A stretch of 64,000 bases of DNA from NCBI GenBank assembly GCA_002067795.1, contig MVQI01000060.1, forward strand, positions 1-64,000, given 5' to 3'. Positions within the stretch are counted from its first letter, which is position 1. Every line of letters begins with the position of its first letter. This document shows positions 363-17,947 of the stretch, one piece after another. The stretch comes from Methanosaeta sp. PtaB.Bin039. GTDB lineage: Archaea > Halobacteriota > Methanosarcinia > Methanotrichales > Methanotrichaceae. The notes beneath the pieces were generated by a model that was not told the DNA's origin, searched no databases, and saw only the letters and a list, made by a program, of their open reading frames with translations. Both the position numbers and the translations under genes were made by a program.

Positions 363-398
363 GTTTTTACATTTCATGTAAAAACTTAAATTTATATA
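363..398 (+). promoter_or_regulatory. Palindromic operator and TATA box of the RiPP locus
   Basis: A perfect inverted repeat (arms GTTTTTACAT 363-372 and ATGTAAAAAC 376-385, spacer TTC) lies five bases before a TATA box, TTTATATA at 391-398. This places the palindrome over the BRE position, where an activator or repressor could control TFB/TBP binding. Transcription would start near 420-424, about 40 bases before the precursor ATG. A near-identical module recurs at 11596-11632, which supports a real regulatory element. Confidence 0.7.
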
Positions 399-461
399 GG
401 AGTGTGATAATAGGATAGAGTGGCGGAGTAAATCCCGACCAAGGAATGGAGTTTGGTATAA

Positions 462-602
462 ATGGAAGAGTTTTCAAAAGCGAACCAAGACGGAGGAACA
501 CCTGAGGCATGCTACTGTAATTGGTGTAGCTGTTCAGGTGGCAACGCCCAGAGTGTCTTCTATGGGCAGGACTACCAAACCAATCCATCCAAATATTGGT
601 AA
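462..602 (+). CDS. Candidate RiPP precursor peptide, 46 residues, CxCxxCxC core
   Basis: This small gene has a Shine-Dalgarno-like GGAG at 448-451, ATG at 462 directly after an in-frame TAA, and a TAA stop at 600-602. The product has an acidic, Gly-containing N-terminus (residues 1-16, with GG at 11-12), then the cluster CYCNWCSC (Cys17, 19, 22, 24), SGGN, and an aromatic tail containing VFYGQDYQ and ending KYW. It lies between the locus promoter and two radical SAM/SPASM genes, an exporter and a protease, the standard place for a modified-peptide precursor. A hairpin spans its stop codon. Predicted modifications are thioether links at the cysteines and perhaps aromatic cross-links; both are inference. 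I recognise no named family. The leader/core boundary is unknown; cleavage after GG12 is one option. Confidence 0.75.
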   Translation: MEEFSKANQDGGTPEACYCNWCSCSGGNAQSVFYGQDYQTNPSKYW

Positions 603-610
603 GGTAGTCC
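569..610 (+). promoter_or_regulatory. Hairpin spanning the precursor stop codon
   Basis: Outer arms GGACTACC (569-576) and GGTAGTCC (603-610) and inner arms ACCAAT (579-584) and ATTGGT (595-600) pair perfectly around a symmetric AA/AA internal loop. That gives 14 base pairs over a 10-base loop, with the TAA stop inside the structure. It could protect the precursor mRNA 3' end, attenuate read-through, or slow release at the stop. Confidence 0.6.
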
Positions 611-619
611 AAGTAAAGA

Positions 620-654
620 CTGGAGCACCAAAACAACGAGTACAGGTGCTCCAG
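620..654 (+). promoter_or_regulatory. Second hairpin between precursor and maturase genes
   Basis: Perfect 10-bp arms CTGGAGCACC (620-629) and GGTGCTCCAG (645-654) enclose a 15-base loop. There is no U-tract, so this looks like a processing or attenuation element rather than a simple terminator. Such elements commonly keep a peptide precursor transcript in excess over its modifying enzymes. A TATA-like ATATAATAATATA follows at about 660-674 and could give an extra promoter. Confidence 0.6.
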
Positions 655-699
655 CACCTATATAATAATATATTAGGATAAATTAAAGATTGTGATAAT

Positions 700-2196
700 A
701 TGCTAGAATTTGAAACTTCAACAGGAAATTTGTATGCATGGGATGATGAAGTAGGCTTATTTATTCCATTTTCCCCAGCTATGAGATCCGTTTTAGACGT
801 GCTCTCAAATCATGATTCAGTCACTAAAGAGAAGGTCATGTGTTTATTAAAAGAAAATATTGAGAGAGAGGAAATCTCATTTTGCTACGATTGGATTCGA
901 AAGTGGAATAAAATAAAAACCCAAATTCAAAAGACTAAGAATATTCAAACGTTTACTGAATCGGATATTAGATATTCGGTGTTAAAATTTGGTCTATTGC
1001 GTCTAACATTATGCATCACAGAAGATTGCAATTTCATGTGTAAATATTGCGCCTATTCCGATTTCTACAAGTACACAAGGAGGCCTTCTGATAAATATAT
1101 GAAGTTTTCTATCGCAAAAAAGGCAATAGATTACTATTTCTCATTACTTGATGAGGGAAAGAGATACAATCCACTAAGAAGGCCAGCAATAGGATTTTAT
1201 GGGGGAGAACCCTTATTAAATTTTAAATTAATTAAAGATCTAGTAGATTACATAGAAAATGAATACAAGGATCATAAAACGATATACACGATTACCACAA
1301 ATGGCAGTTTACTAGATAAAGAAAAAGCGAATTGGCTTATGAAATTTAAGTTTATCATAGACGTTAGTCTGGACGGGCCTGAAGAGGAGCATGATAGACT
1401 TAGAGTCTATACTAATGGGAATGGAACCTTCAGAGACGTTATGAAAAATGTTAGTTCAATAATGATAGAAGGCTATCAAGAAATCGGATGCCTCCCAGTT
1501 TTCGATTGGAGAAGCAATCTATTCAAGCGGGAGGAATTCTTTAATAGACAAGACGTTCCGCGTGTACAAGGAGCGTTCCCAGTTGACGATGTAGAAGGAT
1601 GTTCCTATTATCAGCAATTTACAGAGGAGGAGTTTCTTGCATTTATGGAACAGTTCGAAAGAGCCAGAAATTTCTATTTCATGAATTTAGATCACCATAG
1701 ACATAGGAAAAAGACAACACTCTTTGATGACCTAATTGGTCAAGCTCCAAGAAGAGCTCTCTTTAGGAGCATTTCAATTTATCCACATCATCCGTTAATG
1801 CCATTTACAGGTGCATGTATACCAGGAAGGAAGATATTCGTAGATGTCAACGGATTTTACCATCTATGTGAGAAAGTGAATAGCGATTTTCCTATTGGCA
1901 ACGTAAATGAAGGATTAAATTTTAAGAAGATCTATAAACTAATAGTTAATTATAATAGTTGTATGGACAAATGTCCGGAATGTGGTGTCGCGCGAAGATG
2001 CAATTTTTGCTATAAGTCGTTCGCAACCGATAAGGATTTCCTACACTCTTCAACCGTGTGCAAAGAAGTTGAATCTAATATGAAAAGATCATTTATTGAA
2101 GCGTTTGAAATAGCTGAAAAGTTCCCAGAATTTATAGACGATTCTAATATTAAATATAATAATATTAGAAAATATTATAATTCGTATGGTGAATGA
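700..2196 (+). CDS. Radical SAM/SPASM peptide maturase with N-terminal PqqD-like domain
   Basis: A 498-residue enzyme expected to modify the adjacent precursor. Residues 1-90 resemble a PqqD-like peptide recognition element. The radical SAM cluster motif is Cys110, Cys114, Cys117, followed by GGEP (168-171) and SLDGP. The C-terminal SPASM/twitch region carries Cys373, 390, 421, 425, 428, 434, 437 and 454, enough for two auxiliary Fe-S clusters. From memory the core resembles the clostridial Cys-rich-peptide maturases (CcpM type); this needs a search. Enzymes of this architecture install Cys-to-alpha, beta or gamma-carbon thioethers or other C-C/C-X links. The stop overlaps the next start as ATGA (2193-2196), so translation is coupled. 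Confidence 0.88.
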   Translation: MLEFETSTGNLYAWDDEVGLFIPFSPAMRSVLDVLSNHDSVTKEKVMCLLKENIEREEISFCYDWIRKWNKIKTQIQKTKNIQTFTESDIRYSVLKFGLLRLTLCITEDCNFMCKYCAYSDFYKYTRRPSDKYMKFSIAKKAIDYYFSLLDEGKRYNPLRRPAIGFYGGEPLLNFKLIKDLVDYIENEYKDHKTIYTITTNGSLLDKEKANWLMKFKFIIDVSLDGPEEEHDRLRVYTNGNGTFRDVMKNVSSIMIEGYQEIGCLPVFDWRSNLFKREEFFNRQDVPRVQGAFPVDDVEGCSYYQQFTEEEFLAFMEQFERARNFYFMNLDHHRHRKKTTLFDDLIGQAPRRALFRSISIYPHHPLMPFTGACIPGRKIFVDVNGFYHLCEKVNSDFPIGNVNEGLNFKKIYKLIVNYNSCMDKCPECGVARRCNFCYKSFATDKDFLHSSTVCKEVESNMKRSFIEAFEIAEKFPEFIDDSNIKYNNIRKYYNSYGE

Positions 2197-3341
2197 AAAT
2201 GTATTTCAGACTAAATCCAGAGTGCTATTTAATAAGAGGGAAAAAATGCGGAGCGATTTATGATTTAATTGATGAAAAAATATATGCGCTAAATCAATAT
2301 GAGACAAGAATTGTGACATCTAGCGAAAATAATGACGTAGTAAATGAAGATAATACGTATCTTACCGAATTGGAAAAGCTTCGAATTGGGAGGTTTTACA
2401 AAAAGAAAATATATGTACAAAAATTGAGGGCGGGTTCGCCTATCAGAGAAATTCAAAGCGAGCCACCAGCATTCCATAGAGCCTTTCTTGAAATAAACAA
2501 TATATGTAATAGAAACTGCTGGTTCTGCGGGTATAATGGTGTAAAAAGAAGTCTAGGATGTATAGGATGCAATAGATGGAATGAAAACGGAGAATCATTA
2601 AGCTTAGAAAAGTGGAAAAGAATAATTAATGACCTAAGCGATTTGGATTGTAAGGATATTTTTATAATTGGCGGAGATTTGACATTGGTATGGGCTAAGA
2701 CAGTCAATATAGTAAATTATGCAAATAGCAAATTCAGGAATATTTATATCACACTTCATCACCAAAGCCTATCCTTAGATATAGCAAATTATTTAAATAA
2801 TAAAGCCAATTTAATCATACAAACTGATAATATTAATGTACCTCAATATAACCAATCGTCCGTAATTATGGTTATGAATCCCGACGATTGGACAGATTTC
2901 TACGACATGGAGAGTAAAGGAATAAAGATAGATTTTGTGATCGATGATGTCGAATCGCTATCAAATAATCTGCCAATAATTTCCAAAAAGAAAATATTAC
3001 CCGTGAATGTATACAAGTTTATAGATAATATAGAATATCACCCTTGTCTGGGACATACATTGGCCATCTGCCATAATGGCAACGTAATTCCTTGCCCTTT
3101 AATGAGAAGCCATAGATTTGGCAATGTGAGGAATGGAGAACTCTATCAAGTTTTCGAGAAAAATTGGAAAGAAATAGAGAAAATCTGGAAATTAAATTTA
3201 GATAAAATAGAGAAATGTAAATGTTGTGAGTTTAGGTATGCTTGTACTGATTGCAGAGCATTAGAAGAAAATTTAACAGGAAAATTAAGTGGCAAGAGGC
3301 TTTGCGGCTACAATCCAATAGAAGGAGAATGGCTAAAATGA
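2193..3341 (+). CDS. Second radical SAM/SPASM protein of the RiPP locus
   Basis: A 382-residue protein. Residues 1-45 form a second PqqD-like N-terminus; the 4Fe-4S motif is Cys105, Cys109, Cys112, and an extra CIGC pair (123-126) follows at once. The usual GGEP is replaced by IIGGDLT, an altered SAM-binding motif. A SPASM-like C-terminus contains PCLGH, AICHNGNVIPCP, CKCCEF and ACTDC. Two radical SAM enzymes for one small peptide suggest two chemically different modifications or a helper role. It starts inside the previous stop and ends in ATGA with the exporter gene. Substrate and chemistry are unknown. Confidence 0.82.
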   Translation: MKMYFRLNPECYLIRGKKCGAIYDLIDEKIYALNQYETRIVTSSENNDVVNEDNTYLTELEKLRIGRFYKKKIYVQKLRAGSPIREIQSEPPAFHRAFLEINNICNRNCWFCGYNGVKRSLGCIGCNRWNENGESLSLEKWKRIINDLSDLDCKDIFIIGGDLTLVWAKTVNIVNYANSKFRNIYITLHHQSLSLDIANYLNNKANLIIQTDNINVPQYNQSSVIMVMNPDDWTDFYDMESKGIKIDFVIDDVESLSNNLPIISKKKILPVNVYKFIDNIEYHPCLGHTLAICHNGNVIPCPLMRSHRFGNVRNGELYQVFEKNWKEIEKIWKLNLDKIEKCKCCEFRYACTDCRALEENLTGKLSGKRLCGYNPIEGEWLK

Positions 3342-5029
3342 AGGATAAATATAGGTATTTTATTACTAGATTTGTTAGACCATACGCCCCAACAATGATA
3401 TTTCTCATTATTTTGAGCTTTATGGGCACCATCTTTTCATTTATCACCCCATTGCTCGCCAAATCATTAGTAGATGACGTTTTTATTGACAGAAGGACAG
3501 AGATGTTTGGCTATATCCTCTTGGGAACTACAGGAACATACATCATTTCATCGATTTCAGCTTACATCTCAGGTTATAAAAAAGGGACCCTGGACCTAGT
3601 CATTTTCAATGATGTCGCTAAAGAAGTATTTAGCGCAATTCAACTTGCACCTATAGAGAAAATTCAAGATATGAAAGTAGGAGACCTACTGAGTCGCATT
3701 GTTGTTAATACACGATCTGCCATAAATATGTTTACTTATATCATTCCTGAATTTTCTATTAGCGTTATACGTATTATTGCACCCATTACAATAATGCTAT
3801 TTTTGAATGTACAACTTACATTAATTGTAGTGCTACCTGCAATGTTATTCATCTTACCGATTTCATTCTTTGGAAGACGATTGGAAAATACACAAAGAAT
3901 ATCATTGATAAAGACCGCATCGATATACTCATTTATCAAAGAAAATCTATCTATGATACTCTTAATAAAGGCGTTCTCGCTTGAGAAGTGGTCTCGGGAT
4001 AAGTTCGATAAAGAGATGAAAGGATACTTTGAAGCATCTATAGACTATACAAAAAACTCCTCTATGAACAGCTCTGTAAGTTCTTTGATGAACGGAATAC
4101 CCATGATTCTGCTTATCTTGTTTGGCGGAAACATGGTAATTCAGGGATCATTGACCATAGGCACATTTACAGCTTTCATAAGCTATGTCGGCCTCTTCTT
4201 TGGACCTCTATCACAACTTGCCTTCCTATGGTCCTTTTATAAAAGTTCTCTTCCAGCCTTCGACAGAATTAGCAACATATTAAGTCTGGAAAATGACGAG
4301 GGTGGCAAAGAAGAGCTAGAACTAAAAGATGGCACAGTAGAATTTAATGATGTGTGGTTTTCTTATGATAATAGGCGGATCCTCTGCGGTTTAAGTGCCA
4401 CCTTTGAAAAAGGCCTGAATTATATAGTGGGTGATAATGGCAGTGGAAAGTCCACAATCCTTAAATTAATTAGTTCCATTTATTCATTGGATAAGGGGCA
4501 GATCAAGATAGATGGGCAAGATATCTCAAAGATTAGGAAAGATAGTCTTAGGAAGAACATCTCGATTATTTTTTCGAATCCATATTTATTTGATGGCTCC
4601 ATCTACGAGAATATTCATATTGGCAATCTTACCGCGTCAGAAGAGAACATCATTCATGCTGCAAAGAAGGTCGGCGCACACGAATTCATAATTAATCTAC
4701 CCAATGGCTATCAAACTCAGGTTGGAGAGAGTGGCCTAAAACTATCAACCGGAGAGAAGCAGAAAATCGCCCTAGCAAGAGCGATCTTGAAGAACGCTCC
4801 AATATTACTGCTCGATGAGGTAACTAGGTCTATAGATATAGATTCTAGAAGATCAATAAATAAAATTATCAAAGGCTTTAAAAGCGAAAAAACGATTATT
4901 ATAATTACCCATAATGCAAATGAGATTGAACCTGACAGCAATATCATTTTCCTAGGCCAAGGAAACACACTAGATGATGATTTCTACATTTCGTTCGATA
5001 AAGAAATGTTAAAGGCGGTGCCTTCATGA
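3338..5029 (+). CDS. ABC exporter (fused membrane and ATPase domains) for the RiPP product
   Basis: I choose ATG 3338, giving 563 residues: it overlaps the upstream stop as ATGA and has AAGGAG at 3322-3327 with ideal spacing; in-frame starts at 3251 and 3329 are less likely. The N-terminal half is a six-helix type I exporter domain. The ATPase has Walker A GDNGSGKST, a non-standard signature LSTGE instead of LSGGQ, and Walker B LLLDEVT with the catalytic Glu. There is no N-terminal C39 peptidase, so leader removal must be done elsewhere, presumably by the following subtilase. Likely exports the modified peptide as a homodimer. Confidence 0.88.
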   Translation: MKDKYRYFITRFVRPYAPTMIFLIILSFMGTIFSFITPLLAKSLVDDVFIDRRTEMFGYILLGTTGTYIISSISAYISGYKKGTLDLVIFNDVAKEVFSAIQLAPIEKIQDMKVGDLLSRIVVNTRSAINMFTYIIPEFSISVIRIIAPITIMLFLNVQLTLIVVLPAMLFILPISFFGRRLENTQRISLIKTASIYSFIKENLSMILLIKAFSLEKWSRDKFDKEMKGYFEASIDYTKNSSMNSSVSSLMNGIPMILLILFGGNMVIQGSLTIGTFTAFISYVGLFFGPLSQLAFLWSFYKSSLPAFDRISNILSLENDEGGKEELELKDGTVEFNDVWFSYDNRRILCGLSATFEKGLNYIVGDNGSGKSTILKLISSIYSLDKGQIKIDGQDISKIRKDSLRKNISIIFSNPYLFDGSIYENIHIGNLTASEENIIHAAKKVGAHEFIINLPNGYQTQVGESGLKLSTGEKQKIALARAILKNAPILLLDEVTRSIDIDSRRSINKIIKGFKSEKTIIIITHNANEIEPDSNIIFLGQGNTLDDDFYISFDKEMLKAVPS

Positions 5030-8000
5030 GTACAGGAGAATATATTCTTATCATATCTCTAGTAGTAACGATAATAGTGTCACCCTCAAATGCGATAGGA
5101 GGAGGAAATCCTGCAATTTACAATATATATAAAGGGCTAGAAAATTTCGGAATCGAAGATGCTTGGGACATGGGCTACACCGGCAAGGGTGTGAAAATAG
5201 CTTTAATGGATAGCGGATTAGACTTTGCCACTCCGGACCTTATTGGTTCTCAAGCTCGAATTGAAAACGTCAGTTCTCCTTACTATGGCTGGCCTATCGT
5301 TATAGATCCAGATTCGTTATCCGCATTTCAGCAAGATACCCCTATCTACCGTTCACAGTATGCAAATACTAGCTCTCTGGATACAAAAGGCTATCATGTT
5401 ACTGGGACCAGCAAAAGCGGCATTTACCACATTGGAGATCATCCAGATGGGCACCTAGCTCAGTTTTACGGCTCGCCGGTGAAGGTCCTTTTAGTAGACG
5501 AGAAGACCTCTGGCGTATATGATACTGTATACGTAGATTTAAATAATAATTTCGATTTCAGAGATGATAAGCCCTGCAGAAAAGGGGATGAGATCTCCTA
5601 CTGGGACAGAGACAATGATGGCTATCCGGACGAATCTGGTGGTATGATTTACTTTATAGCTGATGGAAAGACACCACTTCCATTCTCTAAGATGCTCTAC
5701 GGAGAGAAAGCAAAGATACCGAAAAATGGAGAACTGGTTGCTTTTCATTTTGATGACTGGAATCACGGTACAATGTGTGCATCTATCATAGTTGCTCAGG
5801 GAAAACATGTGAAGGGAATTGCCTATGATGCCAGAATTGTACCAGTTCGATTATTTGGAGCAAATGATAAGCTCCTCTGTCTCCTTGCCTCGATTGGGTA
5901 TGATGGAATTCCAAATACGGGCGATGAAGCAGATATCATAAGCCGAAGTGGAGGCATTAGGAACGTGTTCAACAAAGGTGTCGATGAAGGTTCTGCATTC
6001 TTAGAATACCTAACCACCAGAGTCTCGCCCTCTACAACCCTAGTGTATGCGAATGGAAACGACGGATCTGGATACGGCACCTGCAATCCCCCATCTGGAG
6101 GACGCATAATTAATGTTGGTGGAACTTATGATATGTGGTGGAACGGCTCACGTCATAATGGAGATATAGCCTGTTTCTCCTCACGAGGTCCTAACGCCCT
6201 TGGACAGATCGAACCGGATGTGCTGGCTACCAGTGATCGTACACCAGAGGCGTTACCCCTATGGATAACCCATAATGGCAAGGCTTCATGGGATGGATTC
6301 GGCGGCGGCACCAGCGGTTCAACGCCACATGCAGCTGCGGTTATTGCGCTAATCTACCAGGCCTACAAAGATGCATATGGGAGATTCCCGACATCTGAGA
6401 AGGCCAGGGACATTCTCTTGTCCTCGGCCACAGATCTAGGTGAAGAAGTCTTCGCTCAAGGTTCCGGCATAATAAATGCCAAGAGAGCTGTTGAAATAGC
6501 ATCCGGAAAATATGGAATTTTAGTTGAACCTGCGTTGCTCATCACATCGCCTATTGAGGCAGGATCTATTGCGAGGTTTAATTTCACAATATCAGATTAT
6601 TCTGGAGAAGCGATAGATCTGAAGCCTCAAATATTAATAAAAGATATGAAGAAAGAAGTATCATTGAAACCAGAGGATAAGGGCATTTTTTTCACTATTC
6701 CCAAAGAATTGCTCGATTGCGATCTATTAAGAATCTCATCCTACTATGAAAGAGATGCCAAAAATACCAAGCTAGAGAAAGAAGAGGGATATGATCTCTA
6801 TCTGTATAACTGGAACGATACGAATAGAGATGAAAAAGCTCAAGACGAAGAATTGGAAGTAATAGCAGGCCCTTTCTTTGAGTGGGGCTATGGATTTACA
6901 TCTGAAGTAAGAATGCATAATCCTGCAAAACGAATGAATGATGGGATTAAAGCTGGTTTGAAAGCAAGAGGCGAAATCAAAAAGAAAGAGATACGAGTTG
7001 TAATTGAGACATATAAATGGATACCGTGGAACATCGAATTGGAACAAAATGGCAATCAGGTCTACGTTTCAATATCAACAACCAACGCAACAGGATTATA
7101 TCAGGGAAAGATATCTTTAGAAAGCAATGCTGGAATACAATGCATTCCAATATCCTTCTCTACGTATATAAATGACGAAATCAAAATAAAGACCACAAAA
7201 GAGATCTATGAAAACAATAAGATCTACGGAAGGTTTGAAGGAGACGGAGCAAGCGGCTGGGATTCGAGGATCTATCCGCTATATCATTACGGCCACGATT
7301 TAGCAACCATTGAGGTCTCTTGGGAGGATCCCAGTACAGATATAGATGTCTATCTCTATGGAGAGACTGTTTTTGACGCTTCAAATATTTGGAAATACTC
7401 AACTAAGCCTCCAATCGATCTTCCTAAATTGGGAGCCTTCAAAGAGAATGGACATAGTCTGAGACTATCTGGAAATGTCTTTGTTGTTCAAGGTGATATG
7501 GTTCGTGGTGGTCCTAGCTACAATGCGTTTTATACATCTACTGGTAAGCAGAAAGAGGTAATAATCGGCGAACTAACTGAGGGGCTGAATCTTATTCTCT
7601 TACGTCAAGTGGTCTCCAATGGAAATACGTATGGAGAAAATATAACTATAAGAATCTATGCCACGCCTTTTAGTCCGACAGACCGGAAAGCAACGGCTGG
7701 AGATATCGTGAATCTAAATCTAACAGGAGTAGACGGCATAATAGGCTTTTCCACTGGAGAAGAGATAAGAAACGAACATGGCGCAAAGACCTTCAAAGCA
7801 AAGAGCGGCGATGTGATATTGATCCATTCCAAAGAGGCCAGCTATTTCCCACGGATATATTTTGATTCAAATGAAAATGAGAAGATCGATTTTAATACTG
7901 ATGAGCTGATATTCGGAGAACAGAGGTATAATGATATCAATCAATCTTACACAGATATCATACCAATCGATAAAATGGGAACCTATTTCCTTTCTGGAAA

Positions 8001-8793
8001 TTGCGAATTCTATCATCTTAAGGATCGATATAAAACCAGCATCAATGAATCCATGACGATCAAAGCACCAGAGCAGTCCGGAACCTACCTTGGCATTGCT
8101 GAGAAGGACACAATCCCGATCCCAATCCCCGTCACGCTGCTGGTTGAGCCTGGAGATCCTGTGTCCATTGGTCTGAAGTTCGATAACATCACCGAGCGCA
8201 ACCAATCATTCCAGGTCGAGCTGGAGCTGCAGGACAGGTTCGGAAATCTGGTCGAGAAGGCTGCCGAGGCCACGATAGAATTCGGAGGCGTCTCTCAAAA
8301 GGTGAGGCTGGTCAATGGATTGGGCTTCATCAACCTGACAGCTCCCCCCAGTGATGGGATATACCAGATCGTGACGAAAAGCCGCTACGGCGTAACCGAA
8401 ACTGAGATCAAAATCGCCGAGATGGCGCCCCGGAAAACCGGGGACTTCAACATCAGTTCGGACATGGCAGCTCAGGTATCGGATGAGACACCACAGATGG
8501 CGACAAAGCAGCCAAAGGAGACGGCTGAGCTCCCCGAGAAGGTCCAATCGGTCTCGATCAAATCAACTGATGGCAACATCAGCTTGTCGTGGCCACAGTC
8601 GGAAGGCGCCGATCGGTATAATGTGTACAGGCTGAAGTACGGCAACTTCGAGAAGGCTGCAGAGGTAAACGTGACCGAATATGCAATGGCGTCAGAGTTC
8701 TGGAAGAGCTATACATTTCGGGTCTCAGCTGTAAGCAGCGAAGGAGACGAGGGAGAGCCAAGCGATCCGGTTGCCATTGTCGTGACGCCATGA
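5026..8793 (+). CDS. Secreted subtilisin-like protease, 1255 residues, with FnIII C-terminus
   Basis: The N-terminus has a hydrophobic signal segment (about 6-24). The S8 triad is intact: Asp62 (ALMDSGLD), His247 (NHGTM), Ser430 (GGTSGSTPH), with a candidate oxyanion Asn345 (ANGN). A long insert between Asp and His contains Asp-rich loops (DLNNNFDFRDD, WDRDNDGYPDE) that look Ca-binding. Beta-rich domains follow and residues about 1166-1255 form a fibronectin type III domain. It overlaps the exporter stop by ATGA, so it is part of the operon and is the best candidate to cleave the leader outside the membrane, or to confer immunity. Composition changes from AT-rich to host-like GC at about 8090, suggesting a mosaic gene. 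Confidence 0.85.
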   Translation: MSTGEYILIISLVVTIIVSPSNAIGGGNPAIYNIYKGLENFGIEDAWDMGYTGKGVKIALMDSGLDFATPDLIGSQARIENVSSPYYGWPIVIDPDSLSAFQQDTPIYRSQYANTSSLDTKGYHVTGTSKSGIYHIGDHPDGHLAQFYGSPVKVLLVDEKTSGVYDTVYVDLNNNFDFRDDKPCRKGDEISYWDRDNDGYPDESGGMIYFIADGKTPLPFSKMLYGEKAKIPKNGELVAFHFDDWNHGTMCASIIVAQGKHVKGIAYDARIVPVRLFGANDKLLCLLASIGYDGIPNTGDEADIISRSGGIRNVFNKGVDEGSAFLEYLTTRVSPSTTLVYANGNDGSGYGTCNPPSGGRIINVGGTYDMWWNGSRHNGDIACFSSRGPNALGQIEPDVLATSDRTPEALPLWITHNGKASWDGFGGGTSGSTPHAAAVIALIYQAYKDAYGRFPTSEKARDILLSSATDLGEEVFAQGSGIINAKRAVEIASGKYGILVEPALLITSPIEAGSIARFNFTISDYSGEAIDLKPQILIKDMKKEVSLKPEDKGIFFTIPKELLDCDLLRISSYYERDAKNTKLEKEEGYDLYLYNWNDTNRDEKAQDEELEVIAGPFFEWGYGFTSEVRMHNPAKRMNDGIKAGLKARGEIKKKEIRVVIETYKWIPWNIELEQNGNQVYVSISTTNATGLYQGKISLESNAGIQCIPISFSTYINDEIKIKTTKEIYENNKIYGRFEGDGASGWDSRIYPLYHYGHDLATIEVSWEDPSTDIDVYLYGETVFDASNIWKYSTKPPIDLPKLGAFKENGHSLRLSGNVFVVQGDMVRGGPSYNAFYTSTGKQKEVIIGELTEGLNLILLRQVVSNGNTYGENITIRIYATPFSPTDRKATAGDIVNLNLTGVDGIIGFSTGEEIRNEHGAKTFKAKSGDVILIHSKEASYFPRIYFDSNENEKIDFNTDELIFGEQRYNDINQSYTDIIPIDKMGTYFLSGNCEFYHLKDRYKTSINESMTIKAPEQSGTYLGIAEKDTIPIPIPVTLLVEPGDPVSIGLKFDNITERNQSFQVELELQDRFGNLVEKAAEATIEFGGVSQKVRLVNGLGFINLTAPPSDGIYQIVTKSRYGVTETEIKIAEMAPRKTGDFNISSDMAAQVSDETPQMATKQPKETAELPEKVQSVSIKSTDGNISLSWPQSEGADRYNVYRLKYGNFEKAAEVNVTEYAMASEFWKSYTFRVSAVSSEGDEGEPSDPVAIVVTP

Positions 8794-8859
8794 GGAATTG
8801 GGCGAGTGGCTGAGGACGGATGTGTCCATCGGCCCGGCCCTCAAAATCGTGATTCGACT
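8690..8859 (+). repeat. Duplicated segment, copy 1 (protease 3' end and flank)
   Basis: This stretch, covering the last part of the FnIII domain, the stop codon and about 65 bases downstream, recurs in degenerate form at 11720-11890. The last 40 bases (8820-8859) are identical to 11851-11890. It marks the right end of the unit that was duplicated. Confidence 0.7.
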
Positions 8860-8948
8860 ATGCAATCACAAGAAACAGTATTCTTCGACTGATTTCGTGC
8901 GCACATTGTGTATAAAGTCATTTGATCATATAGTTCATGCGACGTGTT

Positions 8949-9430
8949 TCAATCTCCTTTTTCCAGCGCAAGCAAAAGCAGATTCTCTATAGAGATCTTG
9001 GCTTCCTTTCGATCCATCCTCCAGTACATATTGATTGCGTCTCTATCATTGGGGATCTCCTTCAGCGTTTTTGCCAGGAATGGGTATTCGTGCAGCAGTT
9101 CCCTTAAATACCGAACATCGGTTTCTGTGCCTCCAGCATCGGGATCAAGGAGGGAAAGAAGATCGGCGCGATCCTTGCAAAGCTTAACCTTCTCCCGTTC
9201 CACGTCACTCGATGTTTCATTTTGGATTTTGGATTCGGAAAGACCGATCCCACGCTGCTTTAAGTTTGAAAACAATTCAGAAGTGTTCTTTCAGGAACGA
9301 TTACGGATATAGCCTGGGATTAGATCTCGTGCTTCTGTTCGGCCATCGAGCAACGAGAACATCGAAATATCTCTATCAGCTCTTCTCGAGATGCATCAAT
9401 AATAGTTCGTGGAATTCTATAAGCGTCCAT
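8949..9430 (-). pseudogene. Degraded gene after the AbiEi-like regulator, possibly a nucleotidyltransferase toxin remnant
   Basis: An ATG at 9430 overlaps the end of the regulator gene by 14 bases, the spacing expected of a two-gene operon, but its frame stops after 36 residues (9320). A second frame is open from 9290 to 8949 and encodes a helical C-terminus (VKLCKDRADLLSLLDPD, and a Leu-rich end). The two pieces are in different frames with stops between them. AbiEi genes are normally followed by an AbiEii nucleotidyltransferase; the fragment is compatible with such a C-terminus but lacks diagnostic motifs. It could instead be two unrelated short genes. Confidence 0.35.
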
Positions 9431-10433
9431 AGGTTTCAACCAGTTTTTGCGTGAGGTCGCGGCCTGCATATCCCATGCCGGCACAGTCAAGGAGGGCCTG
9501 GGAAGGTGAAACGAGCCAGACCCCATCTATGGAGAAGACCATGCGATCCTTGAACACATCGCGGTCTGGTGAGTATATTCGTACTGCAATCCCTCCATCG
9601 TTCTGCAGATCAAACATCCCAGCAAGTTCGGCATGGTCCTTCTTTTCAAGATATACGTACACAGTATCGTGCCTTGCGCTATAACCGGTGTAAATCTCTC
9701 CTGCTGAAAAACCTGTAAAGGCGCAGGGGATCTGCAGCTCGTCGCATACAGCTGAGATCTCCCTAGCCAAACCTATGGCGTCATAAGCAGCTATACGAAT
9801 CTCCTTTGTGAAGTTTCTCTCGAACGGACGCTCCCACGCAACGCCGTTAAGGAGTTTGTTGATATCGGTTATCTTGAGGTTGCCGCCATCGTCTGATGCT
9901 ATCCCTTTTGAGACAAGAGCCCGCACGGTTGCGTATGTCCAGCCATACGAGACCCCCGACTCAATTGAAAGACGCCTTATGGATGTGCCAGCCTTCATCT
10001 TGAGAAGGCATGAGATGACCTGCCAGGATTTGGGCGAGGTGAGTTTCACCGGAGCTGCTCCAGTCTTACCATGGGGCTCTTCCAGGCTCAATCTAGACGG
10101 CAGCTTGACGAACCGAATTCCGATATTCTTTGCGGCTTGTGCTGCTTCCGATGTTATCCGTATTCCTGCGATGACTAATTCGATATTGCTTGCGCCGGAG
10201 AGCTTGTCGCTTAGGAGGAGCTTTAGCAGTCCGAGATGCGAGAGCGCCTCAAGTTGCACGATGCGCCTGATATCGACTATATACGTCTTGATGCCGTCTT
10301 GTATTACCAGGTCAAACCGGATGGGATAATCTGCAAATGTGCTCTCAGGTCTTATCGCCGCGCCCTCGCTGATACCCAGTTCTATGCTGAGCAGCTTGAT
10401 CAGCTTGGAGTCGTTTCGTGAGATCGTGTTCAT
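9417..10433 (-). CDS. AbiEi-type antitoxin/transcriptional regulator
   Basis: The annotated start is ATG 10433, 338 residues; ATG 10448 is also in frame. A TATA box on the minus strand (10467-10460) would start transcription near 10438, so the mRNA would be almost leaderless for the 10433 start. The N-terminal part is nuclease-like or regulatory, the middle has a winged helix (about 125-200: IRRLSIESGVSYGWTYATVR), and the C-terminus WLVSPSQALLDCAGMGY matches proteins annotated as type IV AbiEi antitoxins. Repeated TATCAGT sites flank its promoter, so it probably represses itself. The downstream partner looks broken, leaving an orphan regulator. Confidence 0.6.
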   Translation of the reverse strand: MNTISRNDSKLIKLLSIELGISEGAAIRPESTFADYPIRFDLVIQDGIKTYIVDIRRIVQLEALSHLGLLKLLLSDKLSGASNIELVIAGIRITSEAAQAAKNIGIRFVKLPSRLSLEEPHGKTGAAPVKLTSPKSWQVISCLLKMKAGTSIRRLSIESGVSYGWTYATVRALVSKGIASDDGGNLKITDINKLLNGVAWERPFERNFTKEIRIAAYDAIGLAREISAVCDELQIPCAFTGFSAGEIYTGYSARHDTVYVYLEKKDHAELAGMFDLQNDGGIAVRIYSPDRDVFKDRMVFSIDGVWLVSPSQALLDCAGMGYAGRDLTQKLVETYGRL

Positions 10434-10450
10434 ATACCATATCATCATTT

Positions 10451-10525
10451 ACTGATAGCTATATAAAGTTATCAGTGATATACTATCCCGGTCTTTTATG
10501 ATAGGGGATAAAGGTATCAGTGATA
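10451..10525. promoter_or_regulatory. TATCAGT operator array around the regulator promoter
   Basis: TATCAGTGATA occurs at 10470-10480 and again exactly at 10515-10525; its inverse half ACTGATA lies at 10451-10457. The inverted halves sit on both sides of the TATA element TATATAAA (10460-10467). This geometry is typical of an autorepressor that blocks TBP/TFB and polymerase binding. Confidence 0.65.
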
Positions 10526-10608
10526 GATGATCGAATCGGCGACATGTCCAGGGGTATTCTCTTTTCCGTATCTGCCAAAAAGTTGGGGGGTCGTCCCCGA
10601 GTATTTGG

Positions 10609-11307
10609 TTACAGCTCTTTTGCCTTGGCAAAGGCCACCTCAGCCTCGGAGGTGCGTCCAAGTGTCTTCAATATCTCGGCTTCTGCATTCCATACGCCCG
10701 CATTTGTAGGGTCGATCTCGATAGACTTCTTATAGGCCAAAACAGCCTCGTCGTACTTGCCAAGATGCCCGGCAAGAAGCGTTCCTCTGGCCTCCCAGAT
10801 AAAGGCGTCCTTGGGGTTTTGGGCAGATGCCTCATCGAAAGTCTCCATCATCTCGTCATAATCGCCCCTCTCAGCGAGGAAGTTCGCCTTGTCGATCCAA
10901 AGGCTCACTTCAGCGGGATTCATTCGGATGGCCCAATCATATGCCGCCAGAGCTTCCTCGTCTCTTCCCAGAGCTGCCAGAGAGCGAGCCTTGCCTGATA
11001 TCGCCCCGGTCAACCGAGGATTATGCTCCAGTGCTTTGTTGAAAGATGCCAGGGCATTTTCATGCCGATCCAGAGAATATAGAGCATCTCCTCTTGCCTG
11101 CCAGGCCGCGGCGTTGGTTGGATCGATCTTTACGGCTTTATCGAAGGCCAAAAAGGCCTCTTCCAGCGACTTCTGGCCATCATTCAGCCAAAAGTCTGCT
11201 GTGTTCTCCTGGGCGAGCGCACCAGAACAGAGCAGGGCAATCCCGACCATGCATAGGGCAAGACTGCTCCTCGCCCGAAATCTGGAAGTGCGACTTCCAG
11301 ATAGCAT
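10609..11307 (-). CDS. Secreted TPR protein
   Basis: Starting at ATG 11307 (a TTG 30 bases upstream is less likely) the product is 232 residues: a basic N-terminus, a hydrophobic signal segment ending ALAQ near residue 33, then about five tetratricopeptide repeats (AFDKAVKIDPTNAAAWQARG, ALASFNKALEHNPRL, AYDWAIRMNPAEVSL and so on). TPR domains bind proteins; this one would act outside the membrane. It is transcribed alone, towards the regulator gene. No specific partner is evident. Confidence 0.75.
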   Translation of the reverse strand: MLSGSRTSRFRARSSLALCMVGIALLCSGALAQENTADFWLNDGQKSLEEAFLAFDKAVKIDPTNAAAWQARGDALYSLDRHENALASFNKALEHNPRLTGAISGKARSLAALGRDEEALAAYDWAIRMNPAEVSLWIDKANFLAERGDYDEMMETFDEASAQNPKDAFIWEARGTLLAGHLGKYDEAVLAYKKSIEIDPTNAGVWNAEAEILKTLGRTSEAEVAFAKAKEL

Positions 11308-11595
11308 GTCCCCCACTATCCAAAATATCTCTCTCAATTATGTTCACGTCCTTTTTCATTCTGTGCCTGTTTCGCGATGCCAATGGCATGCAAACATTAG
11401 ACAAACTTATTGATATAAGTAATTTTCTATATGATTATTTTATATTACAAAAAAGCTATATGACATATCAAAACATGGAATTTAAACAGTATCTCAGCCA
11501 CTTGCCCCAGCCTGCACACCACCCCAGCCCATATGTCAGACAACAAATTGAATTTATACAGAATTATGCCTTTAGGCAGACTATATAACGGTATC

Positions 11596-11632
11596 GTTTT
11601 TACATTTCACGTAAAAACTTAGATAATTATAT
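11596..11632 (+). promoter_or_regulatory. Second copy of the RiPP operator-TATA module
   Basis: GTTTTTACAT, spacer TTC, then ACGTAAAAAC (one mismatch to the perfect palindrome at 363-385), followed six bases later by the TATA-like AATTATAT (11625-11632). Spacing matches the first copy. No precursor gene follows; the sequence runs into the degenerate protease end. Confidence 0.6.
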
Positions 11633-11719
11633 GATAAGATACGACCTGCAAGTCCGGTTATCGGAAAGTCGAACCTCTGCGCGAAATGTCGTTGAAGTAC
11701 ATCAAAGGTAGGTGACACC

Positions 11720-11890
11720 TGGGAGTTCTCAAAAAGAGCTATACCTTCGGGATCTCGGCTATGAGCAGCGAAGTAGATGAGGGAGAGCCGAGCGTATCCG
11801 GTAGCGATAGTGGTAACGTCGTAACTGATGGTCATAGTCTCGAATGGCTGATGTGTCCATCGGCCCGGCCCTCAAAATCGTGATTCGACT
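11720..11890 (+). pseudogene. Remnant of the protease FnIII end, copy 2 of the duplicated segment
   Basis: Translates in one frame to KSYTFGISAMSSEVDEGEPS, clearly homologous to the end of the subtilase (KSYTFRVSAVSSEGDEGEPS), then loses the original stop through indels. The last 40 bases (11851-11890) are identical to 8820-8859. Joined to the promoter palindrome at 11596, it looks like a copy of the locus with its interior (about 8 kb) deleted. Confidence 0.65.
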
Positions 11891-12134
11891 TGAGAGGATG
11901 GATGTTAAAAGAACGCAGGGAAACGGATTCCTGAGACATAACTGCATCTCGTATCAGGCAGTTTCAGTCGTTTCACCATTATTCTCATTCAAATGAGCTC
12001 AACCTCCACATTCCTGGCGAAAACAATTTGTATTTAGTTGGGATATAATAACTAAAAGTGTTTGAGTAAGGCCTCAAGTCTGCAGGAAGATCTGCTGTTG
12101 AGCGTTGCGATTATCCGATAGAGTGTGACATTCG

Positions 12135-14003
12135 ATGATCCCGCTATATAAATTATCTCGTAATGATTTTATTCAAATCCCTGCGGACCAGATAGTCTCC
12201 CATGCCAGGGACGCCGCGCTACGCCTAAGTCCAAGCGAAATCATTGTACGCCGATGGCATCAAGGTGAAGCTTATCATTACCTGTATACGACCAAGGAAT
12301 TTCTTCTGGCACTTGAAGATAAACCTGCTGACGCAATCCTTGAAGATGAGGGAGTTTTAAATCTCCATGAGTCGGAGGCCACACCGGCAGTGGATGCTTA
12401 TCGAGATGCCGAAATATCCCCATTAAAATGCGTCATTATCGATAACGACAGCATAATAGGTTTCTATGATGCCCGGCTCCCCCCGGCCCGCCAGATCGCA
12501 CGATCGATGGGTGATGGGACCTCTAACAGCAGGGAAGGCCAAGACCTGATATCCCGATCGCTTTTGGCGAGCTTCCCAGAAAGGGTCTCGATAGGAAGCA
12601 TATCCTCACTCTTGATCAGGCTGGGCCGCCACCCGAAAAAGAAAGAAGCGCTGCAATTCGCTGTACCATTAGGCACCGAGCTGGATATCGTAGTGGAGGC
12701 ATTGCAGGGTTTTTTGCTTGAAGGTCCAAGTGAGGGCAAAATATCGGTCACAAGCGATGAAGAGACGCTTCCAATCCAATTCAAGCTCAGGGCAACTGAG
12801 ATTGGCCCGGGCCGAATTCGGGTCCTCGCCTTCAAATGCGGACAGCCACTTGGAGCCGTGATGCTGGCCCCCTCTATTCTGGCCGAAGGCCAGATATCCA
12901 ATCAAGCGGCACATAGCGAAAGCAGACCATTGGCTCCGATCCCTGCAGGTCATCCAGATTTGACATTATTTATCCAGGAAAGAAAATCGCCCGACGGTCT
13001 TGAGATTATGTTTCTTCTCAGCGCCCTTGATCCGGATCTTGGTCTCAACCTGAAATCATTTGGCCCGATAGAACTGAAGACAGATCCGCTTCAATACTTC
13101 GAGGAATTCTTTAAGGACATAGAAGGTATGAGCCTCAATGGGCCAGATGAAAGAGCGATAGCGACAAGAAAGCTGTCCCTCAGGGGCGTTGCCCTGTTCC
13201 AAAACTTGCTTCCAGAAGATCTACGCTTACAGATATGGAATCTGCAGGATCGCATTGGAACGGTGCAGATATTATCAGATGAGCCCTGGATCCCATGGGA
13301 ATTGCTCAAGCTTCAAGGCAGACAGGGAGAAAAGGTAGTTGAAGGCCGGTTCATGAGCGAAGCTTTCGCAATGACTCGCTGGTTCCCGGGAATCGGCAGG
13401 CAACCCAGGTTGAGCCTGAAGAACATCGCTCTGGTTGTACCTGGTGACTCCAAGCTGCCTAATGCACAAAAGGAGCGCAGCTATATCCTCTCGCTCGCAG
13501 ACGACCAAAGAAGAGTGGTTGAAGTTCCTTCCACGTACTTGGATGTAATAGAGACTCTCAGCCGAGGCGAGCATAATGTATGGCATTTCACCGGTCATGG
13601 ACGCTTTGATCCAAAAGATCCGAATCATTCAGCAATACGGCTGGAAAGAGGTCAGACGCTCTTGCCTATCGACATCAGCGGCGAAGTGAGCAACTGCAGG
13701 TTGGGCAGGCCTCTGGTCTTCCTCAATGCCTGCCAGACCGGCCGTGAAGCTCTCAGCCTGACCGGCATAGGCGGATGGGCGAAGAGCTTCATCGGGGCTG
13801 GCGCAGCTGGATTCATCGGCTCTCTCTGGTCAGTGGACGATGAAGTGGCATATAAGTTCGCCATGGCATTTTACGACAATCTGCTATCTGGAAAACCTAT
13901 AGGCGAGGCAGCAAAAGGCGCACGAGAATCTGTGAGGGAGTTGAACGATCCGACATGGCTTGCTTATACAATTTTTGCGGATCCGACGGCGATTGTAGCA
14001 TAA
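12135..14003 (+). CDS. CHAT-domain caspase-like protease
   Basis: A 622-residue protein. The C-terminal third is a CHAT domain with both catalytic residues, His488 (FTGHGRF) and Cys533 (LNACQTG), followed by GSLWSVDDEVA. The N-terminal 120 residues resemble a CBS-like or sensor module (HYLYTTKEFL), and residues about 130-260 form a beta-rich segment seen before CHAT in bacterial conflict systems. CHAT proteases act in regulated cell death and immunity, cleaving partner proteins after activation. Only 15 bases, containing AAGGAGG, separate it from the next gene, so the three genes form one operon. A TATA-like element lies at 12043-12050. Confidence 0.85.
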   Translation: MIPLYKLSRNDFIQIPADQIVSHARDAALRLSPSEIIVRRWHQGEAYHYLYTTKEFLLALEDKPADAILEDEGVLNLHESEATPAVDAYRDAEISPLKCVIIDNDSIIGFYDARLPPARQIARSMGDGTSNSREGQDLISRSLLASFPERVSIGSISSLLIRLGRHPKKKEALQFAVPLGTELDIVVEALQGFLLEGPSEGKISVTSDEETLPIQFKLRATEIGPGRIRVLAFKCGQPLGAVMLAPSILAEGQISNQAAHSESRPLAPIPAGHPDLTLFIQERKSPDGLEIMFLLSALDPDLGLNLKSFGPIELKTDPLQYFEEFFKDIEGMSLNGPDERAIATRKLSLRGVALFQNLLPEDLRLQIWNLQDRIGTVQILSDEPWIPWELLKLQGRQGEKVVEGRFMSEAFAMTRWFPGIGRQPRLSLKNIALVVPGDSKLPNAQKERSYILSLADDQRRVVEVPSTYLDVIETLSRGEHNVWHFTGHGRFDPKDPNHSAIRLERGQTLLPIDISGEVSNCRLGRPLVFLNACQTGREALSLTGIGGWAKSFIGAGAAGFIGSLWSVDDEVAYKFAMAFYDNLLSGKPIGEAAKGARESVRELNDPTWLAYTIFADPTAIVA

Positions 14004-14018
14004 GGAGGGACCTCAATT

Positions 14019-14768
14019 ATGTCATATCCCGAAAAGACTGTCGAGGCAGTAATGGCCTATGTGAATGCAACAACCTGGGAGCATAAGAAGAACATTGTAA
14101 GAGCCAATCGCGGGGAGTTGCTGACCGATACCGCGGACAGTGTATTGAACAAATTAATAGAGGATTATAGAGACGACGAGGAAGCTGCAAAAATTTTACA
14201 GATGTATCGTGATCTTCTCTCTGCTTGCCGCGAAGATGGAATCGACCTGGCATTTCACGGAGTCGTCCCACTGGACATCCCTATTAATGAAGTAATCGAT
14301 TACATTAACGCCAAAGAGTGGAGCGATGCCAAGCAAATGGTAATCGACAAACGAGATATCTTATTGACTGAAGAAGCCGACCAGGTCTTTTCGCTTCTGC
14401 TTCAAAGGCATCGAGACAATCCAGACCTGATCGATAAGATAAAGGAAAGTCGTGAGCTTCTGGCCCGCTGCCGGCGAGAGGGCATCGATGCGGCCTTTTC
14501 GGATCGCTGCATTGAGGTGCCGGAGAATGTGGCGAATGCTCTATGGGGATATATCAACGCTCCAACATGGAATGAGGCTGAGCAAATCATAAGGGCAAAT
14601 CAAGACATACTATTCACCGATGTGGCTCAAAACTTCTTTTCGATGCTGCTCAGGTTGGCGGAGACGAAAAATGATAGGGGAATGCTTTCTCTGATGCTTT
14701 CCCGTCGGGAAGCTCTCCTGCGCGCCAAAAAGAAGGGAATCGATGATGCCTTTAGGGATTATCGATGA
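14019..14768 (+). CDS. Three-repeat helical protein of the CHAT cassette
   Basis: 249 residues made of three copies of a unit of about 75 residues with the pattern YINA.TW..A..I...R.ILLT..A followed by a helix and RELLARCRREGIDAAF. The same unit forms the N-terminus of the next protein, so this gene looks like a free-standing adaptor or repeat array that pairs with the TPR-CHAT protein through like-like contacts (inference). No catalytic motif is visible. The stop overlaps the next start (ATGA, 14765-14768), giving translational coupling. Confidence 0.75.
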   Translation: MSYPEKTVEAVMAYVNATTWEHKKNIVRANRGELLTDTADSVLNKLIEDYRDDEEAAKILQMYRDLLSACREDGIDLAFHGVVPLDIPINEVIDYINAKEWSDAKQMVIDKRDILLTEEADQVFSLLLQRHRDNPDLIDKIKESRELLARCRREGIDAAFSDRCIEVPENVANALWGYINAPTWNEAEQIIRANQDILFTDVAQNFFSMLLRLAETKNDRGMLSLMLSRREALLRAKKKGIDDAFRDYR

Positions 14769-17700
14769 CAGAGAACTCGAAAACAGTCCATGATGCCGTA
14801 ACGTCGTTTATCAGGAGTGGTTCATGGGAGGACGCTGCGAGAATCGTTGAATCTCATGGATATGAATTGCTTACTGATGATGCTGATACGGTCATTGCCG
14901 ATGAGATAAGGATCGGGGAATACAAGCACGAATATGATGCAGTAAGCATGCTGCAACTTAAGAGGTGGTTCTTAATCCAGTGCCGCCGAGAAGGGCCAAA
15001 ATACGGACTTAAATCGATAACGGATTTGGGAAACCTGATGGAATTGGAGATATCTCTTGAAAAGCCAGATGAAATGTCATATAAGATAGAAATATGTCAC
15101 AAGATACTTGATCTGATTGATCGCGATATATTGACAAAGATCTGGGGCTGTATCCACGAGGTTCTGGGAGAAAGCTACGCAAAGAACAAGCATAATGACA
15201 TTGCTTCAAATCTTGAACATGCCATAGAGCATTATAATTTGGCCCTGGAAGCCATTACCTCGGAGATTTACCCAGACCTCTGGGCCACAACCCAGATGCA
15301 TTTGGGAATTGCCTATATACAAAGAATAGAAGGCCAGCGTGCAGATAATCTCGAAAATGCAATTGAGCATTTGAAGTTAGCACTGAGTATATTCAGCCGC
15401 GACGTTAATCCTGACGGTTGGTCTATGGTCCAATCCAATTTATCTACAGCCTATTTATACCGCATTTATGGCAATCGCAGCGATAATCTCGAGCGGGCAA
15501 TTAGACACAGTCAACTGGGACTGGAATTAACTGATGATGATGGGGATTCGTCGCTATGGTCTGATCTGCATTTGAATTTGGGCCTTGCATATTCATCAAG
15601 AATCAAGGGAGACAGAGCTGATAACCTGGAACAGGCCTTGGTGCATTATCATCTCACCAAGTATGATCCCCATAAAAGCCCAGAAAATTGGGCAAAATTG
15701 AAGAATAATTTGGCATTCGTCTTGATGGAAAGGGCAAGAGAAGGCCTGTCCGATAGCCTGGATCTCGCCATCGATCAGCTCAATTTGGCACTTCAGATGG
15801 AAAGCTTATCGTATTTCAAGGACATCTGGGCCAGTACTCATAATAATTTAGGAGGTGCACTCCTGCAAAAGGATAGCCTGGCTAACCCAGAAGAGGCCAT
15901 CAAGCATTTCGAGGCGGCTTCGACCGTATACACCCGCTCTAATAATGCCGAAAAATGGGCAATGGTTCAGAGCAATCTCGCTGCTGCATATATGAATTCC
16001 GCTGCCGCAGATCCTGAAACTAACGAAAAGGCAATTGAGCACTTTCAGAATGCACTCGATGTGTATACAAGAGAAGCTTTTCCATTGAGATGGGCCATGG
16101 TACATAATAACCTGGGTCGTCTCTATGCCCAGTGCAAAAATGATAATGCTAATGAAAATATGAATCGGTCTAAAGATCATTTTGAGCAAGCTCTAACAGT
16201 ATTCACCACCGATCAGCTGCCTTCCGAACGACTTAAAACCATTAATGAACTTGCTGCGCTCTATTTCAAGAATAGGATTTGGGATAAGGCACTAGAAGCG
16301 TATGATGAAGCCATCACAATCGGAGATGCTCTATTCGAGGCGGCTTATACAGAGAAAGGTCGGCAGATGGAGATACGAAAGACATCTGAGATCTACGCAA
16401 ATTCTGCCTACTGCTTATTGAAACTGGGAAATCGTGAAGAGGCCATCTTAAGATTGGAGAAGGGAAAAACTCGACAACTGGCAAATGCACTGGCGCTAAG
16501 CGACATTCATTTGGCCAATCTGTCTGAAGATCAAGAGATGCAAATACTCAGTTCTCGACGCAGAGTTCGTGAACTAGAAGCCGAAATGCGCGAATCGATC
16601 GACACGCCGAATCGCCGGCAAGACGCTGAACTTGGCAAAGCATTAAGAGAAGAGCTTGCTGATCTCAATTATCTCATTGAGCATTATCGAGGCAAAGATC
16701 CGAATTTCCTGCATGAAGGTCTCGAGCTGCCTGAGATCTTAGAGCTCATACCCGAAGGTGGTGCATTGGTGATGCCTTTTTCCACCCAACATGGCGGCGC
16801 AGCGTTTGTACTGCCATCGGGTATCGCATCCATTGCGCCAGATACTGTAATTATGATAGACAAATTTACCGATTCGTCATTGCAGGATATCCTTATAGGC
16901 AGCAATAAGCCAGGCTGGCTGAATTCCTATATCGCCTGGCAAAATAGGGGCGTACAGGAAGAGTTTGAAAGAGCCATGGATGAGCTGGCGGCTCATCTTT
17001 GGAGCGTCCTGATGAGTCCAATTTACGAGCGCCTTGAAGAGATTCATCTGAACAGAGGTGCCCCATTGATACTGGTGCCTTTAGGTGCGCTTGGCCTATT
17101 GCCATTGCATGCCGCTTGGTATCAGAAGGACGGAGAAAAGCGCACCATCCTCGACGACTATAGCGTCTCATATGCTCCAAGCGCGTATGTGCTGAAGATC
17201 AGCAGACAACGGATGCAGGATTCAAGGAGAAATGCACGCACTTTGTTGGATATAGTAAACCCTACTGCCGATCTGCCATTCGCGACCATAGAGGGAAAGG
17301 CCGTTGCCGATTTGTTTAAAGACGCGGATAAGCATTTGATTATTGAAAGCGAAGCAAATGCAGGGGCGGTTAAGGAACATGGACCCCATTACGCTTATCT
17401 TCACTTCTCTGGCCATGGGAGGTATAACTGGGACAAAGCCGAAAGATCGGCAATTATCTTGGCCGATGGAGTCGAACTGACCTTGGCCGAGATCATGTCA
17501 CCTGATTTCGACTTTAACATGACGCGGCTGGTGACCCTCTCCGCTTGCGAGACAGGATTCACCGAGTTCCTGGAGCTGCCTAATGAATATATCGGCTTGC
17601 CAGCGGGATTTCTGCAAGCTGGCGCCCCGGCTGTAGTGAGCAGCCTGTGGGCAGTCAACGACTTGTCCACTGCACTTCTAATGGAGCATTTCTACAATAA

Positions 17701-17947
17701 CCATCTTGATAATAATATGGACCTGGCTGCTGCTCTGAGGGATGCTCAGCTATGGTTGCGCGACCTGAAGGCGACGGATGTGGCAGAAATCTTATCTGGA
17801 TACTATGCAGAAGCAGACGAAACGAGTAAGGCTATTCTGCTACAGTATAGGAATTATTACTCCAGCCTGGCGAATCGAGATACTGCGAATCCAAAGCCCT
17901 TTGTCCACCCCTACTACTGGGCAGGATTTACATTAAATGGGACCTGA
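14765..17947 (+). CDS. TPR-CHAT protease
   Basis: 1060 residues. Residues 1-80 are a fourth copy of the helical repeat of the upstream protein (SGSWEDAARIVESHGYELLT). Residues about 110-600 hold many TPR-like repeats (LGIAYIQRIEGQRADNLENA-type units); a coiled segment follows, and the C-terminal CHAT domain has His884 (HFSGHGRY) and Cys928 (LSACETG) with SSLWAVND. TPR-CHAT proteins (as in the caspase-like Craspase of type III-E CRISPR) are proteases gated by TPR-mediated sensing. With a second CHAT enzyme in the same operon, a proteolytic cascade is plausible but inferred. Confidence 0.87.
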   Translation: MTENSKTVHDAVTSFIRSGSWEDAARIVESHGYELLTDDADTVIADEIRIGEYKHEYDAVSMLQLKRWFLIQCRREGPKYGLKSITDLGNLMELEISLEKPDEMSYKIEICHKILDLIDRDILTKIWGCIHEVLGESYAKNKHNDIASNLEHAIEHYNLALEAITSEIYPDLWATTQMHLGIAYIQRIEGQRADNLENAIEHLKLALSIFSRDVNPDGWSMVQSNLSTAYLYRIYGNRSDNLERAIRHSQLGLELTDDDGDSSLWSDLHLNLGLAYSSRIKGDRADNLEQALVHYHLTKYDPHKSPENWAKLKNNLAFVLMERAREGLSDSLDLAIDQLNLALQMESLSYFKDIWASTHNNLGGALLQKDSLANPEEAIKHFEAASTVYTRSNNAEKWAMVQSNLAAAYMNSAAADPETNEKAIEHFQNALDVYTREAFPLRWAMVHNNLGRLYAQCKNDNANENMNRSKDHFEQALTVFTTDQLPSERLKTINELAALYFKNRIWDKALEAYDEAITIGDALFEAAYTEKGRQMEIRKTSEIYANSAYCLLKLGNREEAILRLEKGKTRQLANALALSDIHLANLSEDQEMQILSSRRRVRELEAEMRESIDTPNRRQDAELGKALREELADLNYLIEHYRGKDPNFLHEGLELPEILELIPEGGALVMPFSTQHGGAAFVLPSGIASIAPDTVIMIDKFTDSSLQDILIGSNKPGWLNSYIAWQNRGVQEEFERAMDELAAHLWSVLMSPIYERLEEIHLNRGAPLILVPLGALGLLPLHAAWYQKDGEKRTILDDYSVSYAPSAYVLKISRQRMQDSRRNARTLLDIVNPTADLPFATIEGKAVADLFKDADKHLIIESEANAGAVKEHGPHYAYLHFSGHGRYNWDKAERSAIILADGVELTLAEIMSPDFDFNMTRLVTLSACETGFTEFLELPNEYIGLPAGFLQAGAPAVVSSLWAVNDLSTALLMEHFYNNHLDNNMDLAAALRDAQLWLRDLKATDVAEILSGYYAEADETSKAILLQYRNYYSSLANRDTANPKPFVHPYYWAGFTLNGT

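Follow-up and report, generated by a model that had tools for sequence, protein, structure and literature searches.

The segment at 11594-11890 of the window (the whole 64,000-nucleotide stretch that we analysed, from contig C60 of 64,544 bases in the 82-contig, 2.45-Mb, 96% complete assembly of Methanosaeta sp. PtaB.Bin039) is probably the dead remainder of an old paralogous, protease-bearing RiPP locus that decayed and then underwent short-tract exchange. An old paralogous copy would have diverged for long while its protease was still under selection. The copy would then have lost its interior, leaving the palindrome about 115 bases from the last protease codons, and the remaining reading frame would have broken. 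A later short recombination tract, by gene conversion or crossover, may then have brought the 41-nt 3′ flank into full agreement with its counterpart in the intact locus.

The relic has three anchors whose similarity to the intact locus is far beyond chance. A palindrome with a TATA-like stretch (11594-11634, forward strand) is 90% identical over 39 nt to its counterpart at 361-401 on the same strand, and the palindrome itself (11596-11618) matches that at 363-385 in 22 of 23 bases. Only these two sites were found in the window at up to 3 mismatches, and none in 100 shuffles. The second anchor is a protease tail (11734-11824, forward strand), comprising the frameshifted last 30 codons with the stop codon. 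It is identical to the end of the intact protease gene (8704-8793) at 72 of 90 positions (80%) when one extra base of the relic is set aside. This inserted base breaks the reading frame, and with only about 30 codons remaining the coding capacity is disrupted. The third anchor is a flank of 41 nt, 8819-8859 in the intact copy and 11850-11890 in the relic, identical at all 41 positions. It had no chance match in 100 shuffles and lies in register with the final part of the protease tail (constant offset of 3031), and no other exact direct repeat in the window exceeds 26 nt. The 25 nt between the stop codon and the flank showed 10 identities, a marginal similarity (9 of 300 shuffles reach the score of this gap). 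No strand was assigned to either copy of the flank or to the linker between palindrome and tail (11635-11733).

The initial annotation had placed the palindrome within about 120 bases of the degenerate protease end, and the measured distance from palindrome end to tail start is indeed 115 bases. The 40 identical bases that it reported (8820-8859 and 11851-11890) are real and extend to 41. Its proposal that the order equals the intact locus without its interior holds for the three anchors, which are ordered on one strand, but no trace of an interior gene accompanies them. The relic thus combines collinear homology to an intact paralog with a disrupted frame, as expected of a pseudogene. Pseudogene relics of duplicated genes typically show a frameshift, truncation and collinear ends. 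The relic is ordinary in kind, sharing all three features, and only the identical flank is unusual.

The 18 changes among the 90 tail bases fall 4, 2 and 12 times at codon positions 1, 2 and 3, respectively. The tail is 80% identical to the gene on its own contig, 74-76% identical to three copies in the genome G015 (chromosome of 3,008,626 bases, which we take to be Methanosaeta concilii GP6 and write as GP6-like), and 71% identical to the protease gene of G012 (Methanothrix sp. CSMAG_2495). Because the tail is closest to the copy on C60 and is biased toward third-position changes, its divergence probably took place in this lineage and for the most part while the gene was functional. Given changes at 12 of 30 third positions, the chance that 41 neutral bases all stay the same is about 1 in 10^9 (0.6^41), so the flank requires either later exchange or selection. 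An 80% identical tail beside a 100% identical flank also does not easily fit one duplication plus one deletion.

We searched for the flank in a family comparison set of 50 genomes, own included, of which 33 are at least 90% complete. Its 35-nt core had two matches at up to 3 mismatches, both at the sites described here, and its 31-nt core had no exact match in viral or genome contigs, a set from which the own genome may be excluded. A widespread repeat was thereby rejected within the 50 family genomes. The flank is a sharp tract of identity that no relative among these genomes carries, and relatives therefore cannot separate exchange from selection. We favour later exchange, since other copies of this gene end bear marks of exchange, as described below.

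The locus at 361-8793 appears from its gene content to be a RiPP cluster. Downstream of the palindrome, all on the forward strand, lie an ORF for a predicted Cys-rich precursor peptide of 46 aa (462-602), rSAM1, a CcpM-like radical SAM peptide maturase scoring under the family cut-off (700-2196), rSAM2, a radical SAM/SPASM protein (2193-3341), an ABC exporter (3338-5029), and an S8 protease of 1255 aa (5026-8793). A peptide similar to the precursor is found before rSAM1 in G012. The best NCBIfam model for rSAM1 was the CcpM-type maturase (TIGR04068), and the Cys-rich small ORF beside it is a further likeness. However, rSAM1 scored 216.4 bits against a cut-off of 500 and is not a member, and here, unlike in the CcpM-type system, the genes behind it include a second radical SAM gene and an S8 protease. 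None of five small ORFs tested against NCBIfam matched a model. Upstream of the palindrome, the 3′ end of a wHTH regulator gene (1-145, forward strand) is cut by the contig start. It is identical at 144 of 145 positions to 51131-51275 of contig C53, and the identity ends at the stop codon; the near-identical wHTH ends contrast with the rSAM1 proteins behind them, which are 57% identical.

The same arrangement (wHTH, palindrome, precursor, rSAM1, rSAM2, ABC, protease) is present on C53 of the own genome, with a protease truncated at the contig boundary, and also in the GP6-like genome. A further protease of the own genome lies on C19, and this protease and the second locus on C53 support the paralogous origin of the relic. 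Relatives of rSAM1 were found in 4 of 60 genomes at E 1e-40 and relatives of the protease in 3 of 60 at E 1e-30, own included in both. We read the gene content of 9 of 79 further loci. One of them (L059, 20 kb) has rSAM1, rSAM2 and the ABC gene with no protease match. In another (L061) the contig stops 1.5 kb past the ABC gene, so the missing protease says little. Viral contigs contributed 16 loci with rSAM1 relatives, all of them distant (20-31% identity). Among the literature matches listed, titles and abstract starts contained no description of this locus.

The intact protease gene is itself a mosaic, with a switch near codon 1019. GC3 is 25-52% in 60-codon blocks over codons 1-1020 and jumps near codon 1019 to 62-70%; the C-terminal part (8080-8793) has a different history. 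We compared four user trees for six proteases. Over codons 40-1015, the tree joining the C60 protease with copy b of the GP6-like genome was rejected (AU p of 0.007). Over codons 1019-1190, it was the best tree, with p of 0.00011 or less for the three N-type trees and a FastTree support of 1.000; half of the columns in the C-terminal part are gaps in the intact copy, the others being longer there. Over the last 65 codons, the tree was rejected again (p of 0.023). The C53 protease is absent from the trees of the C-terminal part and tail, where its contig ends, and from the topology tests, and the relic tail is too short for trees. A figure of 29% for the C19 protease was left unused, as it arises only from a one-codon shift in the register of that gene's end.

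Stepwise identity was also observed between other copies. Copies b and d of the GP6-like genome are 92-97% identical over the last 84 codons compared to 37-60% in the six preceding 21-codon blocks. The C53 and C60 proteases are 85% identical over 8047-8166 compared to 53-73% in earlier 60-codon blocks, after which C53 ends. Identity steps together with conflicting trees mark this as a gene with recombination between paralogs, and protease 3′ ends have a mosaic history both in the intact gene and in a relative. The initial annotation had called the locus mobile or recombination-prone. The mosaic gene and the homogenised tails bear out recombination at the protease end, but mobility of the locus is conjectural: the sequence has a single 41-nt direct repeat, and no recombinase was found among those window proteins that were given to Pfam. 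A tRNA-based integration site was also rejected, the only tRNA found in the window being at 49864, as was an RNA gene (no Rfam match in 1-16000 at E 0.1).

We also considered whether the similarity of the tails reflects a generic FnIII domain, the case that the initial annotation had named as counting against its reading. The C-terminal 237 aa of the protease matched only this protease family at E 0.001 (3 of 50 family genomes, own included), in a search for which the relic is too short to be listed, and Pfam fn3 scored 21.4 bits in the intact protease, below its cut-off of 25. This explanation was thus ruled out within the 50 family genomes searched.

What the relic lacks is its interior. The protease tail was the only tblastn match below E 0.01 in 8794-12140, and traces of rSAM1, rSAM2 and the ABC gene were absent there (best E of 0.022). 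The linker did not outscore shuffles against the precursor region, nor dinucleotide shuffles when compared with the locus or with relatives of it; the latter was true also of the sequences upstream (11340-11595) and downstream (11891-12134). No wHTH relic was found upstream of 11594. Interior-gene traces, by which a collapsed whole RiPP locus would be recognised, are thus absent. As a candidate FnIII remnant, the linker showed a weak resemblance that was not significant in an anchored protein alignment (against shuffles, p of 0.10 for the best score and 0.13 for the summed score; 0.09 when other window DNA served as the control; 0.75 when the intact copy was taken by itself).

The order of the anchors favours loss of a whole locus over loss of a protease alone, and the former is the likelier case. 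The missing precursor, rSAM1, rSAM2, ABC and wHTH genes, the unmatched linker and a palindrome that is not specific to the RiPP locus count against it. The claim of the initial annotation that the locus was duplicated and partly lost is accordingly sustained for a second protease-family copy with ordered anchors. It is not sustained for the whole locus, as no interior trace was found and the palindrome also occurs without the locus.

The relic could instead derive from a stand-alone or tandem protease, or another secreted FnIII protein, with a palindrome promoter of its own, which we consider unlikely. The GP6-like genome does carry four protease copies, some of them adjacent, one without the C-terminal part and one without the N-terminal part, whereas G012 has a single copy. 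Furthermore, a palindrome precedes an LTD-like gene on C53 and has 22 nt exactly in common with the relic (TTTACATTTCACGTAAAAACTT). However, no protease in the loci that we read has a convincing palindrome directly upstream, and in the C60, C53 and GP6-like loci the palindrome stands before the precursor. In G012 no palindrome was found at up to 13 mismatches, and neither of two 15-mismatch matches lies upstream of the protease. In the GP6-like genome, one match with 14 mismatches falls on the opposite strand where protease copy a begins. The C19 stretch has none at up to 15 mismatches, and only about 480 bases of contig precede the protease there. The C19 protease therefore cannot be called stand-alone, and we lowered the probability of this alternative slightly for that reason. 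In the GP6-like array, two transposase-like ORFs were noticed by eye between the C-terminally and N-terminally incomplete protease copies.

It is less probable still that the relic joins independent parts, with a free-standing operator of a wHTH regulon lying by chance beside the scar of a former protease copy. The linker is unmatched, and palindromes exist without the locus. In a scan of the 50 genomes at up to 2 mismatches, 19 matches compared to 17 for a reversed control were at background, and we put weight only on the nine matches with 0-1 mismatch and on their positions, the control having no split by mismatch. Five of the nine lie just behind a wHTH gene (C60 at 363, one in G015, two in G001 and one in G043, Methanothrix sp. 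bin.308). The other four are not so placed: two are in G002, and the remaining two are the LTD site and the relic. In C60, C53, the GP6-like genome, G001 and G043, about 190-220 bases separate the wHTH stop codon from the palindrome. In G001 and G043 such sites occur in pairs just behind wHTH genes, with no RiPP-protein match in the 2.3-3.0 kb of sequence retrieved. In two loci of different genomes (L157, 729-1522; L159, 27-825), away from RiPP genes, a wHTH gene precedes a pair of palindromes in opposite orientation with a spacing of about 190 bases. The nine sites, five of them beside a wHTH gene, and the regular spacing suggest that the palindrome is a putative operator of this wHTH family. 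In the own 2.45-Mb genome, the palindrome had four forward matches at up to 3 mismatches (control pattern, two forward and one reverse). At this density, a chance site 115 bp upstream of the tail, in the same orientation and with an in-register flank, would be unlikely.

The C53 site (48283-48937) lies directly before the gene for the LTD-like protein (31.1 bits; the Pfam cut-off is 34.3), and wHTH1 follows about 2.4 kb downstream. Over 22 bases, the relic palindrome is one base nearer to this site than to that of the intact locus. The LTD-like gene is possibly a further member of the regulon.

A more active role for the gene end is also conceivable, albeit improbable: in this methanogen family, the protease 3′ end and flank would be a preferred exchange point at which an incoming RiPP locus is joined in its entirety to a resident tail, with the 41-mer as a crossover or functional site and the relic as a by-product. 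An assembly artefact of the metagenome bin is very improbable. The start of C60 and the end of C53 do each fall within sequence shared by the two contigs, but the relic has 18 differences among the 90 bases of the tail and one in the palindrome and so is not a duplicated read path, and a false join could not, by reasoning rather than from reads, create a second 41-mer.

Returning to the decayed paralogous locus, gene conversion between ancient paralogs is described for mtrA-1 and mtrA-2 of methanogens (PMC4632066). Those paralogs are likewise similar over one part of the gene and divergent over the rest. Here, by comparison, a protease tail beside a RiPP cluster and a decayed copy are involved, the tract is only 41 nt, and exchange is its putative cause. 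The relic fits other signs that the protease end of the cluster was repeatedly reshuffled between copies. Viewed beside the mosaic protease and the paralogous loci, it is a record of turnover in a radical-SAM peptide cluster of methanogenic archaea, and it draws attention to a testable pair of palindrome and wHTH regulator.

Some observations concern the surroundings and the records used. To the right of the relic (12135-17947) lie a CHAT-domain gene, an ORF without a Pfam match, and a large ORF that is TPR/CHAT-like by eye. No relative of the CHAT gene was found at E 1e-60 in the 49 other family genomes, which leaves no flanking synteny for an empty-site comparison. One locus in the GP6-like genome (L020, 12615-12627, at the end of the record G015:C1) ends in GGTACCGAGCTCG, within the array of tandem proteases. 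This sequence resembles a cloning-vector polylinker, and the 16 bases that precede it are found again where the same record begins. The spacer between locus and relic (8957-10531) contains, on the minus strand, a 343-aa gene next to an ORF of 108 aa, neither with a family match above cut-off. The 343-aa gene has relatives in 6 of the 49 other family genomes, which serve an empty-site comparison for the spacer only, and in five of these six a relative of the 108-aa ORF adjoins it. The pair is thus a conserved two-gene unit by sequence comparison, and is perhaps toxin-antitoxin-like.
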